Positions 6,284 to 62,903 of a stretch of DNA of 62,903 bases are shown in pieces. Position numbers and translations under genes: made by a program. The stretch lies in contig NW_003122916.1 of NCBI RefSeq assembly GCF_000003605.2, positions 33,225-96,127 on the forward strand. Direction: 5' to 3'. A model generated the notes under the pieces. It had not been told where the DNA came from, searched no databases, and saw nothing but the letters and a program-made list of their open reading frames with translations. Source of the stretch: Saccoglossus kowalevskii (Eukaryota > Hemichordata > Enteropneusta > Harrimaniidae). Position 1 is the first letter of the stretch, and every line of letters starts with the position of its first letter.

Positions 6284-7170
6284 TATTGTATTATCATGTG
6301 GATCACGTTTACAAATTATGTACACAAATAAGCATGGAAAGGTGGTTTTCATTAATTAGCTAGCTGTTCAGCCCTTTGGTAATGTCCATTATTAACTCAG
6401 ACGTAGACCATTTGCAGGTTTGAGTACATCATTTTGTTCATTCTAATTCACAGCCAGCCACCTTACAATCACTAAATAGTCCTTGAAATATCCATCTATC
6501 ACACCATAAGTCGGCTGATAAATGTCTAATATGAAGTATCTGCCAATCCAGAAAAATAACTATTAAACAATCTGTCAACACATTAAAAAAGAAATTTAAA
6601 ATTCCCAATTCTACCTAAATTGTTGCTGCATTCATTGTAACAGCCTATCATTAGAGAACAGCATTCAACTTTATCCAATATTATTCAATGAAATTACAAT
6701 GTCTAAATTTTAATTGAAGCACGCCATGACAAAGTTGTTATCAGACCACCTGGCAAGCAAGTTTCAATTTTTACCACTTCGGCAGAAACATCTACCCTCC
6801 TCAGAATTGCCATTATGTTTTTGAACTCACTTTGTAAAACAGCAAATAAATGATGGAAATAATTATTAGCAAGATTAAATAGAACACTATTAGTTGATGA
6901 ACAATTACGTATAAACCTACATGTATATTAAAGTATATAAAATAACCATCATGAACTGAACAGCTTCTGTGCTCCTCAGTCATATGACTAACATTGGGCA
7001 CCAATTTTCAAGGCCAAAATTTATAAAATAGCCTTAGAATATAGAAATAATACAGAAAATATCCAAGACCATCAAGGAAACTTATTGGGCATCAACAAGA
7101 CAATTGCTTCAAAATACGTCCAGCAATCAAATATCATAATTTTATAAACTATCACTAGTACCGGTATTTA

Positions 7171-11704: not shown

Positions 11705-11911
11705 ATGAAATGTCAAAGCAATTGGAAGAAGTCAAAAATATTTACTATGATTAGGGAATTGCAGGTATCATCACAAAATGAACAAATCTGAGGAAGGCTA
11801 CCCAAGGTATGTATATACCAAGTATCAAAGCAAGTGGAGAAAATCTAGCAATCAGTAATATGAACATGCATGCAGCTTCGATCTGATGACTAGTCAACAG
11901 CACAGCTAAAA
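11705..11911 (+). mobile_element. Repeat family A, fragment
   Basis: This is a 3' fragment with the core motif AACAAATCTGAGGAAGG. The terminal ...CAACAGCACAGCTAAAA is a decayed hairpin. Confidence 0.5.
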
Positions 11912-12619
11912 AAAATTGGATGCTGAAACAGTTAAAGTTACATACATGTTGCCTATTGAGACAAACTTTGGTTTGAAATATAAATTAAAATGTAATTTCA
12001 TGGATAAATTTTCTAACTTATAGTTCTCTTTGGAGGAGAATCAACTAGAGAATTAACATTTGTTAACTGATAGCCATGTTCAGTAACCTTAGCTTTAGTT
12101 TCACAAACACATATTCCATCAAAGGAACTCAAATATTTATGAAATAAAATTTTCAGGAATGTAATAAGATTTCCATGTAGATGACTCATTTACATACAAA
12201 ATCATGCCAGACAATTACCAATGATATAAATAATGTAGTATCAGATGTAGAATGCATCTCTCTTGTAAGATATTTCTTAATACACTTAATAAACTCTTAT
12301 ATTGAATGACATAAATTAATAAATAAAACATTGATACGTCAAATAATAAGGAAAACTGAAATCAAATTTACTTCATTATGCTTATCTGAAAAAACACACA
12401 AATTTATAAAACAAGATAAATCTGATTCAATAATGACAGTGGGACATATCAAATAAATTGTTTGTTTCCTGCAATTTCCATCACCAAAGTAGATTCTTGC
12501 TTTTCATTTCCTTTCTGGCTTTTTGTCTAATCTTGAAGGGATAAATCATTTTAATTTATCAAGGAATGTCTTTATCTAAGCTACACAAAAGATTATTGTG
12601 CAATACAAGATGATGATGA

Positions 12620-12978
12620 TCAAATACAGTGGAGTGCAGTGTTGTGGATTGGAATGCAGTGTAGTGTAGCGGAATGGAGTGCAATGTTGTGTTGTGTTGT
12701 GAAGTGAAGTGAAGTGTTGTGCAGTGAAGTGTTGTGCAGTGAAGTGTTGTGCAGTGAAGTGTTGTGCAGTGAAGTGTTGTGCAGTGAAGTGTTGTGCAGT
12801 GAAGTGTTGTGCAGTCCACTGCACTGCAGTGCAGTGCAGTGCAGTGCAGTGCAGTGCAGTGCAGTGCAGTGTAGTGGAATGGAATGGAATGGAATGCAGT
12901 GCAGTGCAGTGCAGTGCAGTTGCAACTTGGAATGGAATGCAGTGCATTGCAGCAGAGTGGAGTGGAGTGGAGTGGAGT
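12620..12978. repeat. GCAGT/GGAAT minisatellite with a 15-bp higher-order unit
   Basis: Seven perfect copies of GAAGTGTTGTGCAGT run from 12711 to 12815. Runs of GCAGT and GGAAT pentamers follow. The period of 5/15 with no stop codons makes several frames open on both strands; these are not genes. Confidence 0.95.
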
Positions 12979-14529
12979 TAAGTACACCCAATCCAGATTA
13001 ATTAAGTCTCATTTGAAATCCATGGAAGACAGACAATTAGTACATGTATATACAAATGCATACTCAGCTCCTACAGTACATGCAAAGTGTTTCTGGAAGC
13101 TTCCTTATTCATCTGAATCCAATTTCACATTTTGAATTATTCACATCCCTCACTGACAACAAATACAACTTTCATGTATAATGCGTGTAAATATAAAACT
13201 TAAGCAATCTCAATGACATAATCTTTATAATCATCTGTAACCATCTACCTGTATTGTTTTTAATATTTAAAATTCTTAATCGCACAACAGTGAATACTGC
13301 TGACAACATAACTTTATCACAAGATTTCTTTTTCAAAGTCTTTCCCCAAAATTAAAAAAAAAATATTTGGTAACAATCATGATACAATTGTTTTCACTAA
13401 AATGTAAAATCTTTCAGGGGAAAACAATGCCCCATCCTTTCTCAGATTTAGTTAGAATGGTACAACCCTTTTAATTTTACGCTCTACTTCTTGCAAGTCG
13501 GAAAGGTAGCTAGGTTATAATTCCACAATAACAGTAGTAAAACTTCCTCTTTATTCATGCATGCGTTGATTCTAAGTTGACTATCCATTCTAAATGATAG
13601 TTTTTATGAAACTGATATCCCCTCTTAAAGTCGGAATCATTTGAAAAATAACAATTAACTGTCTTGAAGAACATAAACCACAAATGTACTTTTCCCTGTA
13701 TCGGTATAAGTGACAAATAATTTACTTCATTTGAAGTTGTATCTTTACAGCTTTCTCTCTAATATTTAGCTATTTAAGTCTCAGACAGAATTAGATGTGA
13801 ACAAAACAGCACATTTTGACTATCGAAAAAATAAAAACATTTCTGCTGTTCATGTCATATTCAAGAATTGTATAGTACCCCGGTAGTATTTTTATTAATA
13901 TGAGCATACATTTATGTTACTTTCTTGTATGATTGACAGCATTTTACTTCATGCTTCTATTATCTATTATTTATTTAGTATAATAAAGCAAATATTCCCT
14001 GTGAACAGTAACTACTGAAAACTGTTAACCTTTGCTGCAAGGGCAACACTATACAACATTTTATTTTCAAACATCTAAATATATTAAAAGTGAGTGCGTT
14101 AAGCAGTCCGTCAGTTAAGGAAGCTGCTTGCAGTTGAATCAAAGCATTTATATAAAGCCATGATTTGATACATGTATGATTTGCCTGTCAACAAGCTGCT
14201 TTTTCAATTGGATTGGACGTTAAGTGTTGGGTATCCAATATGGCACAAGTCACTTTTACTTTCTATTTTACTCATTGCTTGAGCCATACTTTGATACTAA
14301 CAGTTTACAAGTATATTGATGTGTATTATCACACAAATCGTAACATGGAATAGCCCGTCTGTTTTCAGTGTAAGTTCATACATGTGTGTATACAGCGAGT
14401 ACATTTGTCAAATGATGAAAAAGACGTACAAAAGATATGCCTTTGGAATAACAAACTTTAAACAATATGTCCAGGGTTATTTTGAATCAGACCAAAAAAA
14501 TAAAAATAAATAACATTTACCAAGACACT

Positions 14530-15397: not shown

Positions 15398-15773
15398 AAC
15401 AAGCAGCCTATCCGCTAAGATAGCTCCGCTGTTAGCAATGCACATTTCAATTAAAGAACAGAAGACATTAGAAAATGAACAATATGTATAGTATCAAAGC
15501 AATCGGACTTGCGGTTTTTAACAAGAAGTTGAAAATATCACTTTTTACCAAAAATGACAAAAATATTCACCAAAATTAGAGAATTGAAGATATCATCATG
15601 AAATGAACAAATCTGAGAGAGGTCTACCCAAGGTAGATATACACGAAGTATCAAAGCATTCAGGCTTGTAGTTTTCAAGAAGAAGTCGAAAAAGTAAAAC
15701 ATTGACACGGACGACGACGACGGACAATCACTCATATGATAAGCTCCGCTTGACAAAGTCGACAGCGGAGCTA
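15398..15773 (+). mobile_element. Repeat family A, copy 5 (short, well preserved)
   Basis: It has both ends (AACAAGCAGCCTATCCGC ... GACAGCGGAGCTA). The intact terminal hairpin is AAGCTCCGCTTGACAAAGTC... About 1.5 core units lie between. It is the cleanest short copy in the window. Confidence 0.75.
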
Positions 15774-17604
15774 ATAAAAGTAAGTAAACAGAAATTTTAT
15801 TTGCACCTTAATCAAACCACTGCACGTTTCCAAGTAGGTTAGAAGTTGCACAATTAACATAACAAAATGTATGTGAATTGGAATTTTAATTTTTATGTAA
15901 TTTCCAAACCACTGATCAGCAATGTTTGATTCCTAGCAATCAAGTGAATCACAAGAAGGTTTAACATCATACCTCAGAAGGCTGTGCCACATAGTCATTC
16001 ACAATGCATGTGTGCTGTGCAATCATTTTCTGTATTCAATCAAAATTGGGATAAGAATTTTCTAATTATTGCACAGACTCGTAATTTAATAGTTATCTGA
16101 CATTTGAAATCGCAGTAGAAAATTCAACTTATTTCATCAAAGAAGACGGAACATTTTGTTGAATACTAGTCACAGTATATCTAACAAGTCTTTCATACTA
16201 CATTAAAGTAACATCAGTAGTTGGAGATGTCAGTGATGTACATGTATACTTTAAAGATAAAACCTTAAGTAAATAGTATCAAGTAATGCTTGTGGGCATA
16301 TACGACTAAAGTCTTATCCAGTGCGTACATTAAACGTGAAGCCATCACCAAGATAAGAGAATCCATCACATCCATTTCTATTCACAATTTTTTTTCTGAA
16401 GTGATTGATTTAAAAGTAATGTCTGAAACAACCATAAAGAAAAATACATGTCTCAAAATTGAATCATCTTTAGATAATATAAGCATGTAGAGAAACCAAT
16501 AATTTAATTCACTCTGTACTGGATCATTAAAATACATGTATGACTTCATCCATAGATATACTCCTGTCATTCATACTTGCGCTTTAGTGAGACAATATTA
16601 CAAGCAAGTCTACTAAGTTTAAATAACAGACTGCCAATCACTCAAAATTACAGGGTCAGGGTAGGTTTGTAATAGCAAATTCTTCAGACTGCATGTTTAA
16701 TCTGGAGATTGGTTTTATTCACCTTGTGTTTGATGACATATTAAAGTATTGTTTAAATAACTATCTTTTCAAGCAGTGGCAAAGATCGCATACAAATACA
16801 GGATTTATGTCTAACTGTTTTTATTTGTCAGATTGAATTGACAGCAAATATAACGAATACCGGTACTGGGTTGTAATGATAGAAAATTTAAAATTAATTT
16901 TTGAAATTTTTGTTGTACAATATATATTGGGAAAACTATTATGACACTGAAAACTCAGTAAATTAAATTTAAATTTTTTCAATGTTTCAATACTACCGGT
17001 AATATACATGTACGACTTTTATCCCACATGTCACTGAGCAAATTTCATAGACATGAAGAAATAATTTAACCATAGAAACAAGTGCAAAAGGCAAAATATT
17101 TGCCATTTTCCATAATATTTGTGTTTGACTTTTGTTTCTCAAAAACTTGGGTGATCCCAATTTATTCAGTTTTAGTTTTAAAATGGCATTAACCTATAAT
17201 AATGATAGAGGAATTGAGTTTATAAGAAACTTTTTATTTTGAGACACAGAGGGTGAATTTTCAATTGTTCGTACTTTCTCGCATAATCTCTGGTATGCAT
17301 TTAACTGTAGAGGATACAAACATTGTAGAGGCACAGATAAAAAGCATAAAAGGTACCTGAAGAATAAAATAGCTCTGCACTACATCATAAGGACATTGTA
17401 AAAGTTGTAAAAACACACCCATAAGCAATTATTTTATATCACCCACAAAAAAGTAGTTTGATACTGGGTGAACATGCTTTATACCTAACTTCACCAAAAT
17501 CATTTATATCTAATTAATAGCCAAGCTACATGTACAAGGTGAAATATTTTATAAGCTCATATACCCCCTTTCCACGATCACCACCACTACCTTGATTTTG
17601 TTCT

Positions 17605-20740: not shown

Positions 20741-21373
20741 ACAAGCAGCCTCTCCGCTGAGATAGCTCCGCTGTTATTAAAAAATGAACAATATGTAGAC
20801 TTGCTGCTTTTAACAAGAATTCAAAAATATCACTTTTCACCAAAAATGACAAAAATAATCATTAAAATTAGATAATTGAAAATATCACCACAAAATTAAC
20901 AATCTGAAAGAGGTCCACATGTAGTACCTATATATGTAATATAAAAGCAATCGAACTTGTGGTTTTTAACAAGAAGTCGAAAATATCACTTTTTACCAAA
21001 AATTGCAAAAATATTCATCAAAATTAGAGATTTAAAGATATCATCATGAAATGAACAAATCTGAGAGAGGTCCACATGTAGTATACATATATATAATATA
21101 AAAGCAATTGGAATTGTGGTTTTTAACAAGAAGTCGAAAATATCACTTTTTACCAAAAATGACAAAAATTATCATCAAAATTAGAGAATTGAAGATATCA
21201 TCATGAAATAAACAAATCTAAGAGAGGTCTACCCAAGGTACATATACACCAAGTATCAACGCATTCAGGCTCATAGTTTTCAAGAAGAAGTCGAACAAGT
21301 AAAACATTGACACGGACGACGACGGACAATCACTCATATAAGCTCCGCTCGACAAAGTCGACAGCGGAGCTAA
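20739..21373 (+). mobile_element. Repeat family A, copy 6 (multi-unit)
   Basis: It has the 5' AACAAGCAGCCTCTCCGCTG, three core-unit repeats and the intact 3' hairpin (AGCTCCGCT ... AGCGGAGCT) followed by a run of A. An open frame over it on the minus strand is a repeat artefact. Confidence 0.75.
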
Positions 21374-21765
21374 AAAAAAGTGTTCAATGTCAGTGTGACA
21401 TTCAGAATATAGCAGTGCTGCTCCAGAACCAGACAGGAGTAACACAGGAGCTGCTATGAATGTATTTTGATAAGTACTATTGGTGGAAGAATCATCTTTA
21501 AACACACAAGAATGCATAATTGCATTTTAATACAACATCTAAGTAAATTTTGAAAAATTATTTTTATGGAAAGAAAACTGCATGGTTAGAACATTACACG
21601 TAGTTATATACCGGTATATACACAGCTATATCATATGTATGTGAAATTTTGAATCTCAGCCACACATACTGAATACAAAGTGCTACTATACCAAGATGAC
21701 TAAAAGATGTGCCAAAATATGTTTGAATCTCAACATTAGTCAAATTTTCAAAAAGGGACCCAAAC

Positions 21766-26129: not shown

Positions 26130-26525
26130 GATCAAAACTGAAACGAGTCAGCCATCTTCAATGAACAGCGTTCATTCAAACAAAATGGACGCCAGTTGGC
26201 CATTTAAAATTCAGTCTGAAACACAAAATGACATGCATCAAAGTCCCAAGTTTGAATGAAATGCATCCATGCATGACCAGCATCTGGTTTCGGAATGGAT
26301 GAAATGCTGGAAGTTGATGAATTTTTAACAATAAAATGCCAGCATTTGAAAGGGATGATCAAACAAATATGTGCACATGTGCGAAAAGATGCATGATGTT
26401 CACAGAAAGTTTGAACATGAACAGACAAGGCATGTCAGAAACACTGCTGACAGACAGACAGACTGACTGACGAACAGACAGACAGGCGTCGGAGGTCAAT
26501 CCACAAGTTCCTGTGTTCGCAATAT
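26130..26525 (+). repeat. Dispersed repeat family B, longest copy
   Basis: It runs from the GCCATCTTCAATGAACAGCG region through GACGCCAGTTGGCCATTTAA and GATGCATGATGTTCACAGAA. It continues into (GACA)n and GGCGTCGGAGGTCAATCCAC. Open frames on either strand here are repeat-derived. Confidence 0.5.
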
Positions 26526-33519: not shown

Positions 33520-34300
<781 letters not shown>

Positions 34301-42978: not shown

Positions 42979-43351
42979 TCAGTGACAGCCACAGCTTGCT
43001 GCTACCATATCGTCATATTGCTTAAGCACTACATTGTCATCTTCATCGAAGTACAACAAGCTGATGGAAAATAGTTTATCGGGTACACAACATGGCATGG
43101 CTACTTCGTCTCCCAGCTTCAGTGCATTGACTATGCTCTGCACTGTAGCATGATTGGTCGGTTTTGATGTCTGCCCAAGTGGAAACGGGCATTCTCCTTT
43201 GCAGTGATATGCGTTGTACCCTCGTGGAGAAATGATCCACCCTGACCAACCAATCTCTTCGAAATCTACGTAAAGTTTCTGTTTTGAGCATGGTGTCTTG
43301 TATTGTTTTGTTGGCATGGGCTGACTTGCTGTCTCGTCTTCTGTTGCTTGT
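42979..43351 (-). other. admp: Mature ADMP ligand domain (TGF-beta cystine knot)
   Basis: This is the part of the last admp exon downstream of the dibasic RRKR cleavage site. Translation gives a linker rich in Q/T/P and then the seven-cysteine knot. The fourth and fifth cysteines are adjacent (MPCCVP); the fourth is normally the dimer-bridging cysteine in BMPs. The whole ligand is encoded by a single exon. It ends in CGCH and then a TGA stop. Confidence 0.92.
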
Positions 43352-46197
43352 CTCTTCCTGCGAATGCTTTCATCATATCTATTGGTATTCACATTAGGTT
43401 TGTTAATACTTTGCTTCTCGGTGTTGGTTCTGGTAGCGTGTATCATGTCGCCGTACGTCTGCATGATGTAGTCGTAAGTATAGTCATAATCAGTAGTTCC
43501 TGAAACAATGAGATAGTATTTAGTAAACATTATTTGAATAAAAATATACAACTTCCAAATTTTATAATTTGCTTATGTTAAAATGATATTTGCTATGAAG
43601 TTGAAATAGTTATACAAGTTTATAGTATGAACTCACCACCACTGCCTTCTGTGACCCTGGATTCCACTTGTTTGCTGTCATCGTTTGTAAACGTGACCAA
43701 GATTGGTTGCTTACTGCTGTGATGTTCCTTCTTTTTTGCAAAGCGAATAACTGAGTTATCTAGTGTTGTGATGCCAGTCATCGTTGACACAGTAACCATC
43801 AAACCGTGATTTGAGGATGGATCTTCACGCCATGATTTAACCGCTGCAATGAAAAAAAAGAGGAATTTAGTAAGATCTCAGGTTATGGCATTTTGTTGTA
43901 ATAAATCAACAGCCAATGCTTTCATGATTTCCAAGGTTATTAAATATGAAAGAAGAAATGAATTGTGGGTACAGAATGACAGGAAAACAATTTATAGTGA
44001 TTATGCAAAATTAAAAAGATATCTCAAAACTGCCGTAAAGGGCGCTGTAATTATCTTGCTAGCGTGTGCCTTTGTTTTTTTTCTGTAAATAAATTGTACA
44101 CAGAAACCTTACCTGGCGTTATGCTAAAGACTTCCCATCCTGTACCGTGTGCACCAACGAGTCTTGCGCCAATCATCTTGGATTTTTCTAGAGATAATTC
44201 TTCACTTAGTAGTTGGTGAATATGAACCTGTTTTAGGCAAAAAAATGGAACTATTATTTAGTGAACAAAATACTAAGAGATATTGTATTATAATATAAAT
44301 TTGAAAACGGATGAGCTCCCAAAAATCGACAAGTATGTCCTCATATGGCACTTGTTAGCAATGTAAATTACCTCGAAAAAATGTTGTCTTCTGCTGTCCT
44401 CAAGACGGCCTTTAGGTTTAAGTTTGAAAAGATGCAATTCGGCTTGGAGCATATCTTCGCTCTGGGGCACAGTTGAAACATTAAAAAAGAAATGCGTCTT
44501 TGTCATTTGTCCTGCAAATGAAAAAAAATAATAATTAGGATTGCTGCCCCAACATGAAATTTACAATGCCTTTGTTTTTAATCAGCGCCGACAACTGAGC
44601 TTGGTTTGGTCAGTTTGTACTGATCTGCTTCATAGTCTAGTGAATGCGAACGTTCAACATTGTATATTTTTCTGTAGAGAAACAAAAAAAAATCTGGTAT
44701 TTCAAGAATGTCGCCCATGGTTCTCACTTGGGGCAGCACAATTGTAACCATGACAACGTTTATGAAAACTAGTGCCGTGCCCGTATATTGTCTGATGACA
44801 CTCCGTCGATGGGTGATTGATGGCGCTATTCAGTGGCAGCGAAAAGTTGCCCGCGATATAGCTGGAGGACACCAGATGTTTCTCCCGACAACAATGTGTT
44901 TGATACTGCGTGTCCATATATTGGTGATTCATTCCAACACTTAAGAGTTGCTTTTTTTTAAATGCGCAGAAATAAAAAAATGTTTTAACGCGTATTCTTG
45001 AAACCATTGCTTCAACAACCTGTTGTCACGATACGGTTTCCAAACAGTTTTCAAATCTGTTCTTGTCTAATCAACACCATTGTCGTCTATATCTCATTAG
45101 CTGTGATATTCATTGCGAGCCAATAGCAAACTGACAACAGCCATTGTTTTCAGGTGTGAATTCAATACATCACTTAGGGGAAGGTGTGAATTTATCGGTG
45201 CAGCCGCTTTTCAATTGCAAATTTGCATTTTCTTTCAACGTCGGAGTTTTTGTTAAATAATCGTTAATTCCACTAAAGCCAAACAACGTCAATTTAAATT
45301 AGTTATCTCCGAAGCAGCTCTGCAATGTACAGAAAAACGACTTTTTTACTAATTTAAGCACAATTGAAAAAAAGCATTGTTGTATGGTTGTACACCGCAA
45401 GGTGCACCACAGATGTGTGTAAATTTGTTGACCGAAGTAAAACAGTGTGTAGACGTAGCGAGCTCACGACGTTTAAAGTTACGCGCATTCCAGCGTTACC
45501 TAGAAACACAACGTTCTGGAGGGTTGCTTCAAGTAGTAATTCACATAGTTCTAAAAACATATACACGCCAGCAAAATAATAAATCAGGGCTCGCAATTGG
45601 GGATATTTATTAACACGAACTTATTAAATTAATGTGTCGTTACTGAATATTTGCGTTAGTTCTGGTGACGTGGAATTGTGCCGAATACCTGATATGAAAT
45701 GGCGCGACACGGGATGATTTGATTAGCCTTACGATAAATCTTACTACTTTAAATAAAAAAGAAGGAAAAAATACGTCACGGTCAACGATTTTCGACACAT
45801 GCGACTTATAGACACAGATTTATATCGAAAAAAAAAAAGAGTTAGAATTAAATTTGATTAAATGTTACATACCTTTGTCGGGAAAGGATCTTATAATATT
45901 GGCGTGGTATGGATTGGGTGCTCTCGTAATGCCGCTGTCATCCGCGATACTTCGGTAAAGTTCTACCATAAACTGGGGAGGAGAGTGTCGATGCATTGCT
46001 TGTTGAGGTCGGTTGGGCATTCCGAAAACTTCCAAAAGTTGTTCAATTGCCTGTTCTCGTACCGCGTTATTTAATTCTTCCATCTTTTCCATCCTAGTAG
46101 AATCCATCTGTAAATTATCCTGATTATACGGAACTGGGGACGTGAGAACCATTCGGCAGAGCGCGCAGGCAAAGGTGACAAATTCCAGTGGTCGCAT
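42979..46197 (-). CDS. admp: Anti-dorsalizing morphogenetic protein (ADMP), BMP-family ligand, 5 exons, 435 aa
   Basis: Exons in transcript order are 46197-45873, 44511-44372, 44227-44113, 43843-43637 and 43499-42979. All introns are GT/AG and phases agree (1308 nt in total). The protein begins with a hydrophobic signal-like segment (residues 1 to about 20). A TGF-beta propeptide follows, containing LLEVFGM, PPQFMVELYRSIADDSG and IIRSFPDK. A furin-type RRKR site sits at about residues 309-312, and the mature domain is about 123 aa. That domain has all seven knot cysteines (TPC, YHC, GEC, PCC, CGC-H end) and the motifs WIISPRGY, NHATVQSIVNAL and YDDMVAASCGCH. The WREDPSSNHGLMV propeptide stretch and the neighbouring pinhead gene favour ADMP over BMP2/4. 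It should be a secreted ligand for type I/II BMP receptors in dorsoventral patterning. The start ATG has A at -3 and is the first ATG in its frame; the frame stays open upstream without one. Phylogeny could still place it as another BMP-like ligand, but I think ADMP is much the likeliest. Confidence 0.93.
45152..45190 (+). promoter_or_regulatory. Pair of T-box half-sites in admp intron 1
   Basis: AGGTGTGAA occurs at 45152-45160 and again at 45182-45190, in the same orientation and 30 bp apart, inside the 1.36-kb first intron of admp. With the promoter palindrome and further AGGTGTT half-sites upstream (around 46499, 46699 and 47006) they form a local cluster. Confidence 0.35.
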
Positions 46198-46304
46198 ATT
46201 TTCTGTCAGAGTGGATGCTTCGGGATTTCGCTTACAACGCCTTGGTGTGAATATCAGACGTCGGTTAGTTGGGGAAGCCCTCTCAATTGCTTGCACCTGA
46301 ACGG

Positions 46305-46320
46305 CAGACTGACTGGCGCC
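46305..46320 (-). promoter_or_regulatory. BMP silencer-element match upstream of admp
   Basis: Read on the minus strand the site is GGCGCC-AGTCA-GTCTG. It matches the GRCGNC-N5-GTCTG consensus of Smad (Mad/Medea) plus Schnurri silencer elements at every fixed position. It lies 108 bp upstream of the admp ATG, probably in the 5' UTR or core promoter. Admp is repressed by BMP signalling in the animals studied. Function here is inferred from sequence only. Confidence 0.55.
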
Positions 46321-46393
46321 AGGGGCTGTCTCGGTTCTTTAGCCATGGAGACATTTGAATGTCGATTGTCAGACTGAATAAGGTGATTGACAG

Positions 46394-46415
46394 TTTGACA
46401 CCTCAAGGTGTGAAA
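46394..46415 (-). promoter_or_regulatory. Near-palindromic T-box site in the admp promoter
   Basis: On the plus strand, arm TTTGACACCT is followed by CA and then arm AGGTGTGAAA. The arms are inverted repeats with one mismatch. Each arm is a T-box half-site (AGGTGTGA type), so this resembles the palindromic Brachyury-family site with a 2-bp spacer. It lies about 200 bp upstream of the admp ATG. Confidence 0.5.
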
Positions 46416-46444
46416 CCCCGCCCACAAACCAGTGGCGAGCCAAT
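46416..46444 (-). promoter_or_regulatory. GC box and inverted CCAAT box, proximal admp promoter
   Basis: The plus strand reads CCCCGCCC at 46416-46423, directly abutting the T-box palindrome, and CCAAT at 46440-46444. On the transcribed strand these read GGGCGGGG and ATTGG. No convincing TATA box is seen. Together they suggest transcription starts between about 46390 and 46250. Confidence 0.4.
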
Positions 46445-49400
46445 GAGAAAATACATAAAATCCGCTTAACACAGAAACAAAGGCGAGTCTGTGACGCCAA
46501 GGTGTTCGGTATGACATTATCACCTCCAGCACACATCCAACAAAGATTTAATTGAGCTTTTCACCACTAATTAAAGAAGGGATGGATCGAAGATGAAATT
46601 CATTGAAATCATGAATTGATCAAGACAGCTGCGAACACTTGTTGAATACGCTAATCGTGAAGTATTTCCATATACATCATCGGTGTTTTCGTTATGCCAG
46701 GTGTTTCGATAGGTTAGGGGAGGGGTCGGTAAACTTATTAACGATAGTAACATTACCCCCTTCAAAATTTGGTCATATGCCAAGTTATCGAACCCTCATT
46801 AGTGAGTACGCGCCACAGCTGGTTTAAAAATCTCGTATTCTCTTCAGATATGTGGGTGGAAAAACGCCACATGGTGGATTGTTCATCTACCTAGATATGT
46901 TAGTCAAGTTTGTCGCTCTTCACTTAAGTACATTTTACTCTGTTTCTGTGTATTCTGATAAAGCCGAACTCGCAAAGGAGTCATAGCGCATTCAGCGTTC
47001 CTCGCCAGGTGTTAGTCGATACCATTATAATTTAGGGTAAGCTAGGACTTCAACTTTTGGAGTTTCTCCTCAATTTTGTGTACGTCGTTGTTTTACATCG
47101 GTGGTTAAATATATCTTGTTTAATAAAAGTACCCTACCGATAATTTTTTTCTCACTTTCCCGAACCAAGAAGACTATCACTAAAAATAGGATTATATGAT
47201 TTAAAAGCAGGAACACGTGTATTGGAGTATTTATTCCAGGTCAGATTCGGGAAGGAATGGAGGGAGGGAGGTTCCCCACTGTCATTGTGCGTTGTCTTTG
47301 CTTTCCCTATTGTGCCAGTAACGACGTGTAAAGCAATATTGTCTGGCTTCTAGGATTGTGCTTTGTATACATGTAACCTTTTTATCGTTCCTCTGTGTTT
47401 ACATAGGTGCGTTTTAACGAACCATAGCACATGTTTTGAGAAAGACGTGTTATCTGGGACTCCTCTCCAGAAATCTGTTTTCCGATTTGAAATCACATGC
47501 TGTAGTTATCACTCAAAAAGGACGAGTCAGATCAACTGATGCTTACATTGCGGAGTTTGGTGATGATGATCCCGAAATGCCGAGATGACATTGATCAGTT
47601 TTAGTGTACATCTTGCCTGGTTCTGTCATCAAATACATTGCATTGCTTGGCACGGCCAAACGGTCAATTTTTAGAAACCAGTCAATTCTTTGTCTTAATT
47701 CACGTATGTGATGGAATTCAGATAGCAAGCATGGGATAAAGCCTGCCAAATTTCTCTCATCTTTGCTGGCCGCAAAATAACATGTACGCTATTTGAAACC
47801 GCCCAAAGCTTAACGGCAAATTGATAAAGCTGTGTCATGTTTTCGAACTTAAGGCATGGAAACACGGTCGTCGCGTACAATAAAATGTATATAACAGACA
47901 CACACTGTGTTTCCACAGAATATATATAGAAACATGTAGTGTATGACTTGACAGCCTTGAACAAATGGCAAAACCTTGCAAGGAAAAGTTGTGCACGAGT
48001 AAGCTACTAGTATGCACAACAATCGACAATGTTACGCGCGACGAAACTATGCACGTGTTAAAAACACCACCAACTCAAATAATGTTTCAATTGCTGCTAC
48101 ATGGCAACGTTTTGTTTTCATTTTGCCAGTTTTGACATCTCTATGTCGAGGCCACTGACAACTGCTACTGGTGTAATTAACGAGGCGTCCTGCCCGTGTA
48201 TTGTTAACGGGCATGGCCTTTATACAGGGGCATTGGTAACATTAACCCAATGTATGCCATCAAGACTTCATTTGAAAACACTTGTGTTATATTGCGAAAG
48301 TTTGCGAGCCTAGACGGGTACGTTAGGTAACTTACACGACATCATACATCTTATAACGGACGAACAGATTTTATTTTCACATAGAAGTGTCAATAAGCTA
48401 GGTGAGAAATACCTAGGTATATGTGTGAACACATTATTTATATTTCTACGTAGTGGTACGTTTTCATTTTAAGAACACGTTACAGCAACACAAACTGTGA
48501 ATTTGAAAAATAGGTGAGAAAAACAATTTGAAATGTTCTTGGTAGTCGCTATACATTTTCAGTTAACAAAGGCTAACGCATAACGACACGTACGACAATA
48601 TGATTAAACGTATATAATGTATTGCATGTATTTACAATAGAACATAACTTAGAAATGTAGAACACATATAATAATTTATTCTATTGACACGCCGAGTCCC
48701 AGAGTTTACTAGATAACATGCAATCAGGGTCATATTTTGATATAATTATCATTATGCATTCCTGTCCATGTATGTATATACTACGTCCGTCCTTGGACAA
48801 TATTGCGATAACGTGATACAGTAATAAATGCTTTTATCTGTACAACCTTGGCATCTTCTGTCAATTAGGACCGGACGCCCTCTATGTTGTGGTGAGCGGC
48901 ATAACAGAGCGAATCAACATAAAGTATTAAAAACAAATAAAAAGTACCCATAATTCCGTTGACATTTCTCAACACCTAAATTGACACAATACTGGATACG
49001 CGCTTATTAGCTGTAGGTGTTCTCGACAAATGTAACATATGACATGGCCCGGGGATAATGAACAGCAGATATCGCCAATATATTACTTACACAGTGTTGA
49101 TGTGTTTATTGACTTTTCTTCATCATTGCCGCTTCCTGAGACCCACATGTTGAAGTCATCGCCCCGTACGATTTGACAAGGCTTTGGTCAACCTTGTTTG
49201 AGCAGTAATTCGCGGAAATAAAAGTAACTTTATAATTATTTAAAAAGACTCCAAGTTTTAATCTCTCCCATCTGTTATGTTGATTAGCCACAGTCACGCT
49301 CACTTACAGTCAACTTACAACCGTAACCACCGGTTCCATCTTTTCGTCACAAATTCACAAAATAGTCCTGTTCATAGTCTGTCCTATCTTTCAATTGATC

Positions 49401-51137
49401 GGGACAAAAATAGTAATTTTTTATAGTTTGTCTGTTGGCTCCAAAATCTGGATTTATTTCCAGAAATATTGAAGAACATAAGAAAAAAGTGCAGAAACAT
49501 TTGGGCGAGAAAGTCTGGTGGTGAAAAAGGTCAGGGTATTATATAATAACATTGGCGTCGAAATAAATTAAACCGTTAAGAGCAGAGCTCGCGGTGGTCT
49601 GCTAATATGTAAGTCAATACAAATACGTCACACCTGCATGAGGTCACGTGTTTTATTTATCTGATTATAACTTTGTCTTAGCAAAACATTTATCGTCAAA
49701 TTATTCATAACATTACTATACACAATAAATGTTACTGTTTTGGGTAAGATAAACATGCACCGCCCGCGTGTTATTATCATATTATATCCAACCTTTGAAG
49801 TTCGTGATCTAACTGCAAATTTATTTTATTGAAAATCACCAGATACCATAGTTATACGCTGTATATTGTAAAAGAATGTCTGATCGGTGGGAATCTCGCT
49901 TAAACGGAACAATTATAACCCCACAGCTGGGATATCTTCAATATTACCGTAATCCCTCTAAATGCAATTGAAACACGAAATGCGTAATCAAAGGGCATGC
50001 CAGTCTGGGCTGTACCGTACAGGTGGGCTTCTTCTGAATTTACAGTTTTCACTTAGGGGTCGTCTCAAACCTTGTACCCATGGAGTTATCTGCTGCAGTA
50101 CACACATACGAACTATAAGAATGTCGGACGTGGGTATGTTTTCTTCATTTTGTGACATAAACGTAAATGTTTTTTAAGTTAACTGTTGAGTGTGCGCAAT
50201 CATCTACAATGGCCATGTACACCGCTGGAGAGAGACGTACCCTATTTTTGAAAAAACAAAACAAAAAAACACCGACTGCGTTCCACAAATACTGGTCTGT
50301 GCAACCCCAAACCCGCAGCTGTGAGCTGTGAGCGTCCAATCATTGATGACTATATCAAGTTACCTGTGCGATTCACATAAACAATACCGGGCCTCACCTG
50401 CATAAACGCTAGCTTTGACAAAAACAATGACTTGAATAAACTTTACAATGTTTATTGTTACAGTCAGTCAAAGAACAACAACAACGGCAACAAACGAACA
50501 CAAACAGCGCTGGATCATTTGTAGATTTTTTTATTAATATATTTTACAGAAATGGTAATAGGATACGTGGTAATATGTACAAAGGGAATATACTAGTAGT
50601 ATAGAACACAACATCGTATCAGATTGTGCACGCTTTGTGCAGCTTGCTCACATAAGTCAACGTTACTGCGGCCGTCATTTGTTTGTGCCAGAATTGCAAT
50701 ATAGATTTGAATCGTCTTTTGCTTGAAGCACTACGGGTCGTGTTATGAACTAGTCATGGACATGCATTGAATAGTAAACCTTGCTTCAAAATAACTGCGA
50801 TATATTTCCTGTTGAAATAAAAAAAAATGGGGGTATAGCCCATCTGGAAATTGTTTTTGTTCAATTCGTTTTCATGTAATCACAGGATGTGCTGGTGCGA
50901 ATAAACACGCGTTCAATGAACCATGGTGAGCATATACTTTGATGAACGATCCGCTTCCGTGTATAGCATGACGTCACATTCGCCTCTGCCAGTGCCGCCG
51001 CCGATTAGCGTTCACTGTCGATTAAAACTTGAGGATGGTAGTATGATCGGAGAATGCTCCCTGTGTTCCTTGTTTTAAATGAAAATACCAGTGTACGCAG
51101 ATGTTGATTTATATACTTTTTGCAATGTAACAGTTTC
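46445..51137. other. pinhead-admp intergenic region (about 4.7 kb)
   Basis: No exon or transposon copy is recognisable here, in contrast to the repeat-laden left third of the window. It holds scattered T-box half-sites (AGGTGTT near 46499, 46699 and 47006; TCACACCT at 49628-49635). Low repeat content would fit a regulatory region, but this is only an impression by eye. Confidence 0.5.
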
Positions 51138-51143
51138 TTTATT
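51138..51143 (-). terminator. Poly(A) signal overlapping the pinhead stop codon
   Basis: The minus strand reads TGTAAATAAAG, so AATAAA overlaps the final Lys codon and the TAA stop. If used, the 3' UTR would be only about 20-40 nt. Other AATAAA copies on this strand occur further on, for example near 50529-50534, so the choice is open. Confidence 0.35.
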
Positions 51144-53049
51144 TACATGAACATTCGTTGACAGCGAGGACGGTCTTAACAACGCCCCCTCGCGATACGA
51201 ATTGGTGTGTTGTGTATGTCTTCGGCAGGCAGCTCACATTTTTCTTTACCAGAGACATTAAGCAGACATTTGGATCCGATGGCGATCTGTCAACAAATTA
51301 ACAGTTTATAGCGTCAATTATCAGTCTTCACTATAATGGCGTTAAAATTGTGACACAATATGAAAAAGGAAATAATTCATGATGTTCGCACTCGAAATAT
51401 TAAAACTGTAGAATACACGTCACACATCTTACCTCATAACACATCGAAGATGATTGGTCGTTGAGCACGTTCCTACACATCGTCCAATATCAATTTCCTG
51501 TAGAACGAAAAGAAACAGAAATTCTAATGATTTGCATATGTACAATGACGTCAGTCTAGATAACGATTTTTAATTGGCCAATGTCGAATCAACTCTTGGC
51601 GTGGATAAAATACTTTTGACGAATTCAATTCCTAAAATTTTAAGAGACTGTCTAATCTAAAGACAGACGTAAAAATAGTACCAAACTTGTGTGTATTTTG
51701 ACCTGTTTTCAACTCAGTAGTAAAATGTTACCATGGTAACCTGGTGTGCGTTTGTGTTTTCGTTCTTTACTTGATAAGTACTTTTGCTAAGCAAAATATC
51801 ATTAATTTCACATTACTGTTTTTAAATATGCAATATGGACAAACACGAAAACAAATATTGTTAATATTTGTGTTTGATACTACAGCATACTGAATACCAA
51901 ATAGGATTATAATTTACTAGTATCATGAACTACTTTGAGCAGATCATATGATAGTTGCTGTATTCTTTCAATGAAAAATAAAAAACACTACTACGCATGT
52001 GCAGTTATTGCTACTGTACGTACTGAAAACAACCAAGACAAACGAGTATTAGAAAACTGTATTCTTTCATCGATTAATCCCTTATACGAGGCATAAGCAA
52101 TGATTTTATTTCACCATAAAAGGAAATCAAATCAATTTGTATGTGATCGACTATGCTGAAGCTGATTTTGAAGTACAGTATATAATCTCATCAATTATAT
52201 TATATTAATTCATATCTATTATTGAAAAGGGCACTTTGTTTAAATTATTCATTGAATAATTACTAAGGATTATGATTAACCACTATCTTTTAGGGACACG
52301 TTTGTTTGTGTCCAAGTTCAATTTTACGTCACGGTTACCATAGTTACGCGTAGATGTGTTACACAGCTATGATTGTGGTTCGCTGTCACGGTGAGGGCTC
52401 CCGTACATATATATGAGAAAACGGTAACAATGAAAGATCGTGAAGCCAGTTCTTATTACCTTATGCTGTTGGACCGTCCTGTTAACAACAGAGTCGTAGA
52501 CTATCTCATAGTAAGACTGCATATAAGGAACACGGTAACATTCTGACTCACAGCTACACTCGTCAATGATCTCCACACATTCTTTACCTACAGGTGATAA
52601 AATATAAAACAGCATGTACATACACAGATCAGAAAGGCTCTCTTCCGTTCTACGAAATGCTAGAAAGCAGAATAACATGTTCCATTCACCATGCCAAGCA
52701 AGAGGGTCAAACGTGACATTGAACGACTTGAATCAACAACAAATATTTCAATATTTTCAATTTATACACATCATGCTGGCAAATAGACAAGTATGGTTCT
52801 ACTCAGAAGAATTTCTTTTTTTATATTATGTTTATTAAAATATTAACCACAAACCAAGTCATTATCAAAAAACAAAACAAAACAAACCAAAACTCTATTC
52901 GATTCTGTACTATTCTATTATTTTAGCTGCTGAAATAGACAACAATCTACAGCGTAAACATATCCTATCTCTCGTGATTAAATGGGGACAATTATAGAAT
53001 TTGTAAACATCATTGTATGCGCATTGCCCGGATATATGAGCATGTTTCC

Positions 53050-53101
<52 letters not shown>

Positions 53102-56100
53102 TAATTGTTGTCCGTAAAACGTCAGACTGATTTATTTATTCAAAATCTTACCGTTGGGTCCTTCCACTGTAATCGTTTGGTTTTTTGTTGAACGGCATAC
53201 GGTGCCTTCGCCTATAGTAAAAACAATAAATATGGTACTTAATTAATATCGTACTAGACGGTCTGTGTCTTCTATGATGTCATTCCAGTTTAGGTCTACG
53301 ATATTGTGGATACCCCAGACCGTACGTTGTAAAATGTGGTAAAACAAAGTAAGTGATGAGAGTATTTCGTATTTAGATTATCATATATAATTAATAATGT
53401 TTTTACTCAATTCGAGTAAACGTATTTTAAGTATCCGAAAGTGGCTGCTTAGTTACACTTGGTTGCCATGAACAGTATGACATCATCAAATCTTGTTAGT
53501 ATTTTTTTTATTCCGGGTTTTATATCGTCGAGAAAATATGCAAAATATAAGATAATCTGTATTTTTACTACAGTAAAGAAAACAGTACACTGTAATTATC
53601 TGGTCAAATAGTGTAATACAGATATTATTTCAACATGTTCATTAGACTAAAATCTTGAAATTGAAAATCATTCGAGGAAATGTTTTCTGATTGTTGTAGA
53701 TTTTGTCAATACCAGTGTGTAAGTTGCTTGTGTTGACTATATTGATACATATATCCGTTTACTGACCATCTGATTTCAAGAAATATTTTAATACAATATA
53801 TTTCTTGGTTCAGAAATATAGCAAAACTTACCATCACTACAGTGTCCCTCACACGATCCCACGTCTATCTGCGTTTGGTGCGGCGAATCAGGGTACAAGA
53901 CCACCAGTTGGGATCGTCTCCGACATACCACCGGAACAGGCTTACAAGCACAGTTCTCTATGACGTCATATTCCACGGGATCCCCAACCAAATGAACTTT
54001 TTCTCTTTTAAGTCGAGTTGGCTCGCAACTCAAATCTCTGGGACACGAATGATACGACTGTGAATAAAACATTAATAAAAGTAAAATACATCAGTTTAAG
54101 TTTTAAAACTTCATGATCGGCTCCGCCCATATCAGTATTGAGTATTAAAATGCGGCACGACCCGTTATTCACCGACACTGTGACTCAGCGTATTTTACTT
54201 TGCGATCAATCTTCGTTTCTGTATGTATGTATGTGTATGTGTGTGTGTGTGTGTGTGGGGGGGGGTATTTACTGTGGAAACTCCATAACAAGTCTAATTA
54301 ACACAGGAATGCTAATTGACACTCTTGCCACTAATTATTCTTTCATCTTTACCTGATACTCGTTAACAGATTCGTCTTTGAAGTCCTAAACCTCACAAGT
54401 AGATGGTACAAACAAGTAGTTGTTTGACCATGGGTGGACTACTTGCCGAAGGTAAACAACTGATCTAATGGAATGCACATCACACCGTGGCATTAGAAGG
54501 TGTCCCGTTTTAAGTACCATGTCATTGTCACAGATATTTATCACAGACAGCGTGAAACAATCAAGCTAAACAAAATAACCGAATCAAAGATTCACCCGAA
54601 TTGTCACAAGAAAGAAATTGTTAGTTGATCACGTTAGACGAACTACATCTTACACTTGCATGCTGTATCGCATGATATCAATCACTAATTGCACCAACAG
54701 TGTACACTGCATATTTCACATAACTATGCCTAACTTGAAATTGTTGATATCTTTAAGTGTTTCTAGTTTTCTCCATGAATTGCAAATAATTTATATCTTT
54801 TATTTTAAAAGATCGGGATATGTTGGGATTAGTTATACCTGTCAATACTCGTATCGAAGTGGGGAATGCCGTGGGGGAGTCCAAGGGACGCCGATGGCGC
54901 TTATTATATTGCGGAGTTTAGGATGAATGAAAACACGCATGCTCAGTGAACTCAGGGTCAACGTTAATAAATTTGAGAATGCTTTCACCTACCCTTTCTC
55001 TGTCCCAGCTAACATTTTGAGCTGATTCTTTTCTATTAAGACGCCCATGTGAATGAGGTCCACATGTTCTCCGACATTCGCCAATATCCAGTTCAATCTG
55101 CGTACCAGAAACATCTAAAACAAAGGACATCATGCGTACTGTGTTAAACAATGGGCTTTCATTCGTGCCTGGCCACAATGTTAGCAGATGAAATTCAGTG
55201 TGAGAACACGCAATTTGCACAAGAATGGATGGAAACGCATCAGTCCCAACGGAATTACAGACCTACTTTGGACAATGCAAGTTTCTATACAGAAACCACA
55301 TGGTTGTTTACGCGTTTTAAAAGTCTGACAAAGAACTTTAGAAAACAAGTTTTGGCAACTGAATTGCGTTAATTATTGAAGTCCGAATAACATCAAACGA
55401 CCCCATGACATATACGGATGTGTAGAGTTTGTTTCAGCCAGCCAAGGCAATTACTAGTATATGGATGGCACTATCAAGTAGAGATCACATGACCAATAAC
55501 ACGGGTCACAACTGAATCGCTACTACTACTACTACTACTATTACAAGCAATGTTAAAGGGAGGCAGTCTTCGCGCCGCGTCCTGTTCGATATGGGACTCA
55601 TAGCGACGTATACAACGCGTGTAAAATACATTGTTTATTTACATGAAATTCGAACACGCGCTGCGCGACGACCACCGCGCTTTAATTTCACGTAAATTAT
55701 ATTTTTTTTCAATATCCACAACTTTGAGATGAACGATGATATAAAAGTACCGTGCAAACATGATGTTTCCCAAACCAAAACATGACCATTTTGTGGGGTT
55801 GAAGCCTTTTTTCCAAATGTTTATTTTCAATGTGCACGGGCATTCAACAGTCACGACTCCATCACGTACGTATTACATTAGTATATCTAATGTGACACGA
55901 CTAATGCCCGTGCACCTTGCAGTGTCTGTGTGTCACACCCACATTCATCGGGGACTACGACTAAAATAGATGTCAGTTTGAATCGCTACTTCTCTGCACT
56001 CTTATATAACTGCTATATATTCAACGAAATTCAAAATTGAAATCATAGAGCCAATTGGGACGTTGGTAGTTGTAATCACTTTGCGTCTCCTTAGCAACAC

Positions 56101-56638
56101 TTACCGTAACCAACAGCAATACTTTTAGATTTTCTCTCACAGCAGCCAAACGACGAATAGTCAGAATCCTTTTCGTCTTTTCTTGATGTGTTATTTAATA
56201 AAACTGACGACGTCGTCTGCGTTGCTATATTATCGGTTTCCACTACATTATGTTCCGTTTCAGCGGAAGACTTGTGCAGATGCCGCCCTGTAAATAAAAA
56301 TCAATAATAAAGTTAGCTTTCGAAGCTAAGGTCCGGTAATCGATTCTGGATTGATTGTAGGGTAACCGGGCGCATTATGCACGACCGTCATGCAAACGTC
56401 TCAAAGTTCTGAACACATAGAGCTCCTCGTTGGATAATGTAGATTTAGTTTTAAAAAAAACATGTTATCCCGTGAAAATTTAAGACGGATCCCCTCGCTG
56501 AGCCGGAACACGTGCGTAAACAGTTTGCGATCTAGTCAGTAATACAGCACAGTTAAAGCAGTGAATACCTGTAATTTCAGTAAAAACCACACAAAGGAAA
56601 ATCATCCAGCGAAAACATGTAACTGCCGAGCAAGCCAT
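51139..56638 (-). CDS. pnhd: Pinhead, secreted cystine-knot protein, 8 exons, 333 aa
   Basis: Exons in transcript order are 56638-56569, 56287-56105, 55114-54993, 54057-53832, 53211-53152, 52587-52460, 51497-51433 and 51286-51139. Every boundary has GT/AG and a matching phase, and the sum is 1002 nt. Exon 1 encodes a signal peptide with core WMIFLCVVF. A polar S/T-rich linker follows. Then come three modules that each start with a D-[IV]-G-x-C-x-x-x-C motif (residues 94-102, 191-198, 266-274) and end with a CxC motif (ENCACK 159-164, DECSCE 229-234, NECSCK at the C-terminus). This cysteine pattern and its position directly upstream of admp identify Pinhead. In vertebrates and tunicates Pinhead is an extracellular protein active in early embryonic patterning. 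The start ATG has a strong context (ACCATGG). The symbol is by orthology and was not confirmed by a search. Confidence 0.88.
53050..53101 (+). repeat. (TA)n(TG)n compound microsatellite in pinhead intron 5
   Basis: About 12 TA units are followed by 12 TG units. It lies just after the fifth exon in transcript order. Confidence 0.95.
54220..54267 (+). repeat. (TATG)n(TG)n(G)n microsatellite in pinhead intron 3
   Basis: TATGTATGTATGTGTATG runs into TG repeats and then a run of nine or ten G. Confidence 0.9.
55519..55543 (+). repeat. (CTA)n microsatellite in pinhead intron 2
   Basis: About seven CTA units lie just left of TTAA-MITE copy 1. Confidence 0.9.
55553..55685 (+). mobile_element. TTAA-flanked MITE, copy 1, in pinhead intron 2
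   Basis: It begins and ends with TTAA and contains TATGGGACTCATAGCGACGT, ACAACGCGTGTAAAATACAT and GCGCTGCGCGACGACCACCG. The TTAA duplication suggests a piggyBac-type non-autonomous element. It lies inside intron 2 of pinhead, in the antisense direction if defined as copy 2 is. Confidence 0.7.
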
Positions 56639-57242: not shown

Positions 57243-57257
57243 CGGCACTCTGGCGCC
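57243..57257 (-). promoter_or_regulatory. BMP activating-element match upstream of pinhead
   Basis: On the minus strand the site reads GGCGCCA-GAGT-GCCG. It fits the GGCGCCA-N4-GNCV consensus described for BMP-activated enhancers. It lies about 600 bp upstream of the pinhead ATG. GGCGCC is rare in this AT-rich window; I saw it only here and at the admp promoter. Confidence 0.35.
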
Positions 57258-60175: not shown

Positions 60176-62682
60176 TTACGAGATACATAACCATTATAAC
60201 ATTTGCATATTGTATATCCCAGCATGCTTCAGTCGTATATACTATGACCCACATAAAGTCACTTAAATCTTATTTCAGGGAAAGAGATAATCGTACAAAC
60301 CGTTAATTTTACTAATTGTCGCGACGTGTGAAGATAGTTTCCTAGAAAACTATTCTGTACAACGTACATAGAGGTAGATGTTGTAATTATAGCAACTGTG
60401 GAAAGTCATACGACAGTACTACAAAAAGATTAAAACTCTCCCAAACTTATAACACACGAAATGAAATTAAACCCAGGAATGTCACAAACGAGTCAATTCA
60501 AATGTTTATAAAATTACCAAGTACAGGCGCAGATGTTTGGAGAAGTTACATAAACTGTTGATTCATAAAACTAAACCAACTATTTACAAATAGCCACATT
60601 TGCTTTTAAATAACTTATCTGTTTTTATTTTCACCGGACTTACACACTTGGGTGATTGACCGAGATGAATCAACTGTGAGGCATAGGTTATTCAATGGGT
60701 CAGGGTAATCTTATGTAGTAGAGGACCTGTTCAGTTTATTGAGGAGATGTATGTTTTATGCAAATGCAAACTGACATAATTTATATATATATATACTAAC
60801 CGACCAGGATACGAATACAAATCAATAACATCTATGTATAACACAATATATATTATACCATACATACACACACCAATTTAAGTGAATGAATATTGTAGTT
60901 ATAATAGACATCTTAGGGAAACATATTTATGAAATAAACAATTTCCTGTGTCGTACATCAACGTCGTCATTTTATCAGACGGTGGCGGAATATTTCAGTT
61001 ACTCCACATATGGGTTCAGGAACGTCACACTACATGTATCGGATTGAATTGTTGCCAATTGTACGTGTTATTATCTGCCAGTTGTTGGAATGCAAGAAAT
61101 TGAAAACCACGAGACAACTATTATGTGACATTTCAATGAATTCAAACAATTAATAAGAAAGACAAATGTCACAATCACTTGTTCCCCTCCCAAGTTACTC
61201 CACCATTCATCTTCAAAGGTTATAATAAAACTGGAACAATATTTGAAGAAAAAAATGGCCAGAAAAAACAGTATTTTACTCGAAAATGATGACTGCAACT
61301 AAGCAATTTACTCCAAATATGACAACAAATCTATTGAAATTTGAAGTACTTCTTCAGTTTCAATTTAAAAAAGTTGTGCTCACAAAAAATCGTGGCGTAT
61401 TCTTGTGAGCGTGAGAAAGTAATGAGAACTGTGAATGTGTGAATGGCATTCGTTTACACCTGTGTTCGCATCGCTCTATAGTCTACCCTTCAACGCGCGT
61501 TTTTATCTTTTGTCGATGATCCATTATAAGTGGTACTACACGACACCCTTGTTCCGCTTCATTCACATTTAAGCTGCTAATTGGGGCACCAAGGGGGAAA
61601 TTTCCCCGGCCCTCCCATACTTATCGCTGTCAAAAAGGCAATTTTCTGCGACATACCCAGTATTAGTTGGGAAAAACTTGGTTGTCCTTTGATACTGTAC
61701 AATAGTGCAGAGAACAATAGCCGCAGCTGACGACGAGAAACTATCCAAGTACTCTGCAGCGACTCGTCGAGTATTTGACTGAAGATGTTGACGCTGATGA
61801 AGTGTTTACCAGTTGTCAACGGTTCAACACGTGCACATTCCAGTGGTACTCGTGTCAAGGGCGGGGGCTTGGGCGTCGGGAATCAGTGGCTAAGCATTCC
61901 GTCCAAACATAATTCACTCGTTCTGATTCATAGTACGTCTCCCATCATGCAACTACTTTATAATAACGACTGTAGTACGTAATATACAGTGCGCTAAATA
62001 ATAGTATACATGAACATGTATGCACCTTTAACTGTACATTTCTCAATGTGGTCACGCGATGGCGCTGTCCCATTGAAGACACGTGTGGGAAGACGTTCTA
62101 ATCCACCACACAAAGTAAAAATTTAAATGAACCAAAACATGTTTTGTCAACTCCTGACTGCCCAATTTAGCATAGAACCACGAATTGCCGAGGCCGAGAA
62201 TAAGTTATTATTACTTTTTGCTGTTTTGCTAGTAAGCTTTATGTCTAGCCCATATCTAATTTCTCACAGCTTTATCAAGAATCGTGTTGTGGATCGCAGC
62301 TTGCCTCCAGATTGTCCTGAACACAGATAAGTTTAACAAGATGTTCAATAGATAACACAGTTCTGATAAACATTATGTTGACTGATACAGATCCGCTGAT
62401 TTCGACGCACGTTACACACAATAACATGAACTGTTGAAATGATGTAGTTGTGAAATTACATTCTCATCGAAGATATCTCAAAATATTCATCCCTGTACAC
62501 GTTGCCAAAGAAACCCTTTAGGTGGTTTTCAAGAAAATAAAAACAGCATTTTCAGTAGAGAAAAAAAACCTATAAAACCAGTCACAATACAACTAGTCAC
62601 AACACGAAAGAAAGGCAACGCAATGAAGTAACAATTAATCCATGGATCACCGGTGCACATGGCTACATTGTATGAGAATAAT

Positions 62683-62903
62683 CTGACATAGAGTTTACGA
62701 TATCTGACATACAGTTTACGATATCTGACGTACAGTTTACGATATCTGACGTACAGTTTACGATACCTGACATAGAGTTTACGATATCTGACGTACAGTT
62801 TACGATATCTGACATAGAGTTTACGATATCTGACGTACAGTTTACGATAACTGACATACAATTTACGATATCTGACATAGAGTTTACGATATCTGACATA
62901 CAA
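62683..62903. repeat. 21-bp minisatellite, runs off the right edge
   Basis: Ten units of CTGACATAGAGTTTACGATA-T (variants GTACAG, ATACAG) plus part of an eleventh are present. The period is a multiple of three, so the minus strand reads an open LYVRYRK heptad repeat. I see no sign that it is coding. Confidence 0.9.

Follow-up and report, generated by a model that had tools for sequence, protein, structure and literature searches.

A same-strand pinhead-like and admp-like gene pair in the hemichordate Saccoglossus kowalevskii, with candidate SMAD sites upstream of both genes

Pinhead and Admp, which take part in laying down the dorsoventral axis, are said to have been found in tandem from arthropods to chordates by Imai et al. 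in 2012, who also reportedly demonstrated by experiment in a tunicate that Pinhead represses Admp in cis. In the Ciona locus, Pinhead and Admp reportedly share a strand, with Pinhead as the immediate upstream neighbour. We analysed a 62,903-nucleotide stretch of Saccoglossus kowalevskii DNA (hereafter the window; it covers 33225-96127 on a contig of 364 kb, and the genome amounts to 572 Mb in 4,830 contigs) and found the like arrangement, a pinhead-like gene directly upstream of a gene for a ligand of the BMP class. Our reading, to which we assign a probability of roughly 0.8, is that these are the Saccoglossus pinhead and admp1 genes, retained in an ancestral same-strand tandem in which admp would be controlled by BMP-SMAD signalling and by pinhead. 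In Ciona the cis-repression reportedly rests on experiment, whereas the hemichordate pair is known from its anatomy alone.

In zebrafish, admp and pinhead are described as repressing each other, and both are reported to be directly repressed by BMP/Smad (PMC8753366, PMC8034876; Yan et al. 2019). Hemichordate ADMP1 is placed ventrally together with Chordin and under negative BMP control in the literature (PMC11226491), and a brachiopod study states that raised BMP nearly wipes out admp expression (PMC13121700). Saccoglossus and Ptychodera are each credited with two admp genes in a further report (PMC4600745); linkage to pinhead goes unmentioned in the main text of that contribution to the ambulacrarian ADMP1 literature, where the word occurs 0 times, and the literature passages on pinhead that we examined make no mention of a hemichordate pinhead-admp linkage. 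BMP repression of ADMP is the core of the BMP-ADMP seesaw, and the pair described here offers a mutable SMAD site with which to probe that repression outside chordates. What the present analysis adds is this site, a composite SMAD motif 5' of admp, together with an activating-type motif 5' of pinhead.

The two genes are arranged head to tail on the minus strand, with the pinhead-like gene upstream, and extend from base 56638 of the window (the A of the pinhead ATG) to base 42979 (the final base of the admp stop codon), with 4,941 bp between the pinhead-like stop codon and the admp ATG. The gene models, which were built from sequence alone, have unbroken reading frames and GT-AG boundaries at 11 of 11 introns, confirming the complete in-frame exon sets of the original prediction. 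A third gene between the two was considered and rejected, as none of the 21 open reading frames of at least 60 amino acids lying wholly inside the gap (all were scanned) rose above the Pfam cut-off, and the window has 0 Rfam matches at gathering scores. The order, strand, spacing of about 4.9 kb and lack of an intervening gene that had been predicted thus all stand. The window contains no N (count 0), and the pair is therefore not the product of a gap-spanning assembly join. By chance, a given single-copy gene would have a TGF-beta locus no more than 10 kb away with a probability of about 4e-4, computed with 12 loci.

The admp gene (46197 to 42979) consists of five exons, 45873-46197 (ATG, a signal peptide judged by eye and the start of the propeptide), 44372-44511, 44113-44227, 43637-43843 and 42979-43499 (the RRKR site, the entire mature TGF-beta domain and the stop codon). 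Its product of 435 amino acids has everything expected of a TGF-beta/BMP ligand, namely a propeptide (PF00688, 1.5e-30), a dibasic cleavage site of the furin type (RRKR) and a cysteine-knot mature domain (PF00019, 2.9e-35).

To which ligand family this protein belongs was judged against the rest of the genome, which has at least 13 TGF-beta loci (15 matches). Ten of these could be named by eye (univin-like, BMP2/4, nodal, BMP5-8, activin, TGF-beta, maverick-like and three GDF8/11-like), leaving the window ligand, the locus L011 and a fragment, L013. Because the other loci are so named and two admp genes have been reported, we take the window ligand to be ADMP1 by exclusion, with L011 as the putative ADMP2. 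The same protein might instead be a BMP3 orthologue, in which case L011 would be this genome's ADMP: human BMP3 is the highest-scoring solved structure for the mature domain (130 bits, followed by BMP2 with 127 and by BMP7 and BMP6 with 125), and the window ligand is 53% identical to human BMP3 (54/102), equal to its identity to the BMP2/4 of its own genome. We regard a BMP3 orthologue as improbable, since in identity the window ligand is closest to L011 (58%), two admp genes are reported for Saccoglossus while, besides the divergent L013, just the window ligand and L011 remain, and ADMP is the ligand that one would expect beside Pinhead. BMP6 ranks first when the query is the longer C-terminal open reading frame or the whole ligand protein. 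The assignment to ADMP1 also has to be set against the ligand tree (16 rows, four human ligands having been added to 12 from this genome, with L013 omitted as a fragment), in which the window ligand falls in no supported group and in which the nearest proteins by path length are univin-like, BMP2/4, human BMP2 and human BMP3, with L011 fifth; like the structure ranking, these results weigh against it.

Several features of the other ligand loci are recorded here. L011 (G000:C3576:26276-28581) has an intron inside its mature domain. The univin-like and BMP2/4 genes (L001/L002, G000:C803:285585-296142) lie on one strand about 10 kb apart and form a second tandem of axis ligands. L009, L010 and L012 are, by eye, three distinct GDF8/11-like ligand genes, and L013 (G000:C1942:66066-68580) has a divergent TGF-beta-type domain in two pieces.

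Pinhead is a secreted, cysteine-rich protein with cystine-knot-type repeats. The pinhead-like gene (56638 to 51139) has eight exons, at 56569-56638 (ATG and a signal peptide judged by eye), 56105-56287, 54993-55114, 53832-54057, 53152-53211, 52460-52587, 51433-51497 and 51139-51286 (stop codon, overlapped by AATAAA), and encodes an apparently secreted protein of 333 amino acids. The N-terminus of this protein is hydrophobic, and its sequence contains 26 cysteines as well as five N-glycosylation motifs. It is built of three cystine-knot-like units, each of the form I(D/E)(I/V)GxCxxxC and ending in a closing CxC. The alignment scores of repeats 1 and 2 and of repeats 1 and 3 were each reached by 0 of 500 shuffles, and that of the weak pair 2-3 by 12 of 500. 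A genome search with the protein gave eight matches at E<=0.001, and since all are its own eight exons no close second copy was found; a close duplicate is thereby rejected, while a distant paralogue could escape such a search. The name Pinhead would accordingly be based on the single copy, the cystine-knot-like repeats and the position beside the ligand. Counting against the name are the weakness of the repeat pair 2-3, the lack of a Pfam match and the outcome of searches of the PDB, which gave two chance-level matches with the protein and none with a profile of its repeats. As the name comes from features known for Pinhead and from position, the gene could encode some other cystine-knot protein; we consider this very improbable for an apparently secreted protein with 26 cysteines and repeated I(D/E)(I/V)GxCxxxC...CxC units, with no close second copy and encoded directly upstream of the ligand. 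The identities of the two genes, as given in the original prediction, were not established by phylogeny, the ligand being unplaced in the small tree and the pinhead-like protein being without a Pfam match.

The age of the linkage depends on the host, and the mitochondrial contig (C4830) was used to place it, with codons read against conserved mitochondrial protein motifs and genes named by eye. COX1 is on the minus strand, as is ND6; ND2 comes before ND1, ND5 adjoins CYTB and ND4L adjoins ND4. AAA stands at expected conserved lysines (GERkALGYMQARkGP, DGVkLFikEPIkP), ATA encodes isoleucine (MPIMiGGFGNW), and AGA is found at serine-like places. The mitochondrial genome of Saccoglossus kowalevskii is described as having AAA for lysine, with COX1 inverted and ND1 or ND2 transposed (PMC3121625), and a second account gives ATA for isoleucine as common to echinoderms and hemichordates, AAA for asparagine as specific to echinoderms and AAA for lysine in Saccoglossus (PMC2697986). 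The contig agrees with Saccoglossus in all of these (ATA as isoleucine, AAA as lysine, COX1 inverted, ND1/ND2 transposed), and an echinoderm host is ruled out by AAA at conserved lysines. The nuclear genes, again by eye, also fit a hemichordate, with nodal, a univin-like gene near BMP2/4, TGF-beta sensu stricto, two ADMP candidates and homeodomains resembling Hox1, Hox2, Hox4, Hox9/10 and Hox11/13. It had been proposed that, should the DNA not come from a chordate, the linkage would be older than the chordates, and this conditional is borne out by the mitochondrial code and gene order. Since the host is a hemichordate, the pinhead-admp linkage predates the chordates, a conclusion that in itself is probably not new.

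Whether the linkage still has a function is a separate matter, on which the gap between the genes bears. An AATAAA at 51138-51143 (minus strand, first base 51143) overlaps the pinhead stop codon, and 13 more polyadenylation hexamers (10 AATAAA and 3 ATTAAA) lie in the gap; because of these, pinhead transcription may end short of admp. All of these hexamers speak against long read-through and in this respect against our reading, though interference with an enhancer would not require read-through. The same hexamers favor a passive linkage, real and old, in which the pair is a relic of tandem order and cis-repression plays no part. Such a relic is quite possible, if short of even odds. The order and strand of the genes are the ones that the reported tunicate mechanism would require, and the pair is still close together in a distant lineage, both of which argue for a functional tandem. 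Repression of admp in cis by pinhead, taken over by analogy from the tunicate work, is the least certain step of our reading and is proposed tentatively.

Sequences upstream of both genes suggest a further control. A composite SMAD site of the silencer-element/ID type, GGCGCC-AGTCA-GTCTG, lies at 46305-46320 on the minus strand, 108-123 bp before the ATG of admp, and a sequence matching the activating element GGCGCCAN4GNCV, GGCGCCAGAGTGCCG, lies at 57243-57257 on the same strand, 605-619 bp before the ATG of pinhead. At 46398-46412, also on the minus strand and 201-215 bp before the ATG of admp, is a T-box-like inverted repeat, CACACCTTGAGGTGT. The motifs scanned were GRCGNCN5GTCT (with 0 or 1 mismatch), GRCGNCN5GTCTG, GGCGCCN5GTCTG, GGCGCC, GGCGCCAN4GNCV, GTCTG/CAGAC, CACACCTNNAGGTGT, TATA and the polyadenylation hexamers. 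The controls were 50 of 62 loci, 12 having been dropped (nine pieces of the window and three mitochondrial loci); they amount to 184,535 non-N bases, chiefly of TGF-beta and homeobox loci, and are a non-random sample.

The window has two exact GRCGNC-N5-GTCT(G) sites, with 0.03 expected for the 16-base form or 0.08 for the 15-base form, and the control loci have none of the silencer form. The second exact site, at 26475-26490, is within a GTCTG simple repeat far from the pair. In the 572 Mb of the genome, the degenerate silencer form was counted 634 times, compared to 297 for its reversed control, and the strict GGCGCC-N5-GTCTG 68 times, compared to 19 for the reversed pattern, with a counter that leaves out simple repeats. 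The probability that a randomly placed strict site would come to lie in the 250 bp preceding any one start codon is about 3e-5. The 300 bp before admp contain four copies of GTCTG/CAGAC (mean, 0.87 per 500 bp). The activating motif (0.01 expected in the window) and the T-box-like repeat were tested only after being noticed in the sequence; the former occurs once in the control loci, at 2278-2292, about 1 kb beyond the L011 stop codon, and the exact CACACCTTGAGGTGT form occurs once in the window and 0 times in the controls. By itself GGCGCC is no rarity, as 1.4 copies would be expected in the window and the control loci contain 13, and its second and last copy in the window, at 57252, is inside GGCGCCAGAGTGCCG. 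As an observation on the genome-wide search, GACGGCGTACTGTCTG accounts for 26 places among the degenerate silencer matches listed, as if it were part of a repeat family.

The site 5' of admp has the identical motif and spacing to the GGCGCC-N5-GTCTG ID-type element and the Drosophila silencer element. GGCGCC-N5-GTCTG is a BMP-responsive ID-type motif, with the same spacing in the fly silencer (PMC11907993); the consensus of the fly BMP silencer element is as published (PMC3738585), and the silencer and activating consensuses are, in a third source, motifs at which SMAD4 associates with pSMAD1/5/8 (PMC12259022). The composite SMAD site 5' of admp and the activating-type motif 5' of pinhead therefore suggest direct BMP input to admp, and perhaps to both genes. 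Several points weigh on the other side: SMAD motifs with one mismatch show no excess in the window (4, with 5.0 expected); no BMP target was recognisable by eye at two further places where SMAD motifs are doubled, where no domain search was made and where 4,910 of the 10,000 bases of one of the two stretches are N; the same motif drives BMP-responsive ID-type reporters (PMC11907993), so that in this animal it may act in either direction; and vertebrate Schnurri homologues do not have the fingers with which the fly protein binds Smads (PMC10853822). We consider the odds that admp receives direct SMAD input to be even. The zebrafish comparison differs for the neighbouring gene, since pinhead is reportedly BMP-repressed there, whereas in Saccoglossus the upstream motif fits an activating consensus.

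Taken as a mechanism, our reading would run as follows. ADMP, as a ligand of the BMP class, would be produced in regions of low BMP activity, and BMP would switch admp off directly, through SMAD1/5-SMAD4 on the composite site beside the promoter. Pinhead, encoded next door, would be a secreted cystine-knot protein with an action on ADMP, and in regions of higher BMP its gene would be transcribed in the direction of admp. In this scheme pinhead would serve both as a second repressor of admp in cis and as an antagonist in trans. Passage of the polymerase, or enhancer interference from pinhead, would help to hold admp off in the same cells, and complementary domains of pinhead and admp would be the outcome. 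A bolder form puts a two-layer BMP switch in the common ancestor of hemichordates and chordates, with SMAD1/5-SMAD4 repressing admp (via GGCGCC-N5-GTCTG) and activating pinhead (via GGCGCCAN4GNCV), and pinhead transcription and protein then silencing and antagonising admp again. This is unlikely to hold in full; were it true, a single BMP input would set two opposite genes.

Searches beyond the pair added little. Relatives of the pinhead-like protein or the ligand were absent from the viral contigs searched, a domain search of 10 window open reading frames outside the gap gave no useful match, and ligand peptide strings searched for in paper texts gave no match of use. Three open reading frames (1522-1755, 15538-15807 and 21218-21526) have the string LAPLSTLSSGAY in common, which is likely a dispersed repeat, and a fourth, at 11751-11984 on the minus strand, resembles the later portion of the LAPLSTLSSGAY-bearing repeat sequence. 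Simple tandem repeats at 12559-13008, 33867-34106 and 62529-62903 give rise to long spurious open reading frames, and the first and last of these repeats do so in several frames. A coiled-coil open reading frame (L059, about 6561-6816, minus strand) that lies some 16-17 kb beyond the right end of the window resembles RUFY proteins.

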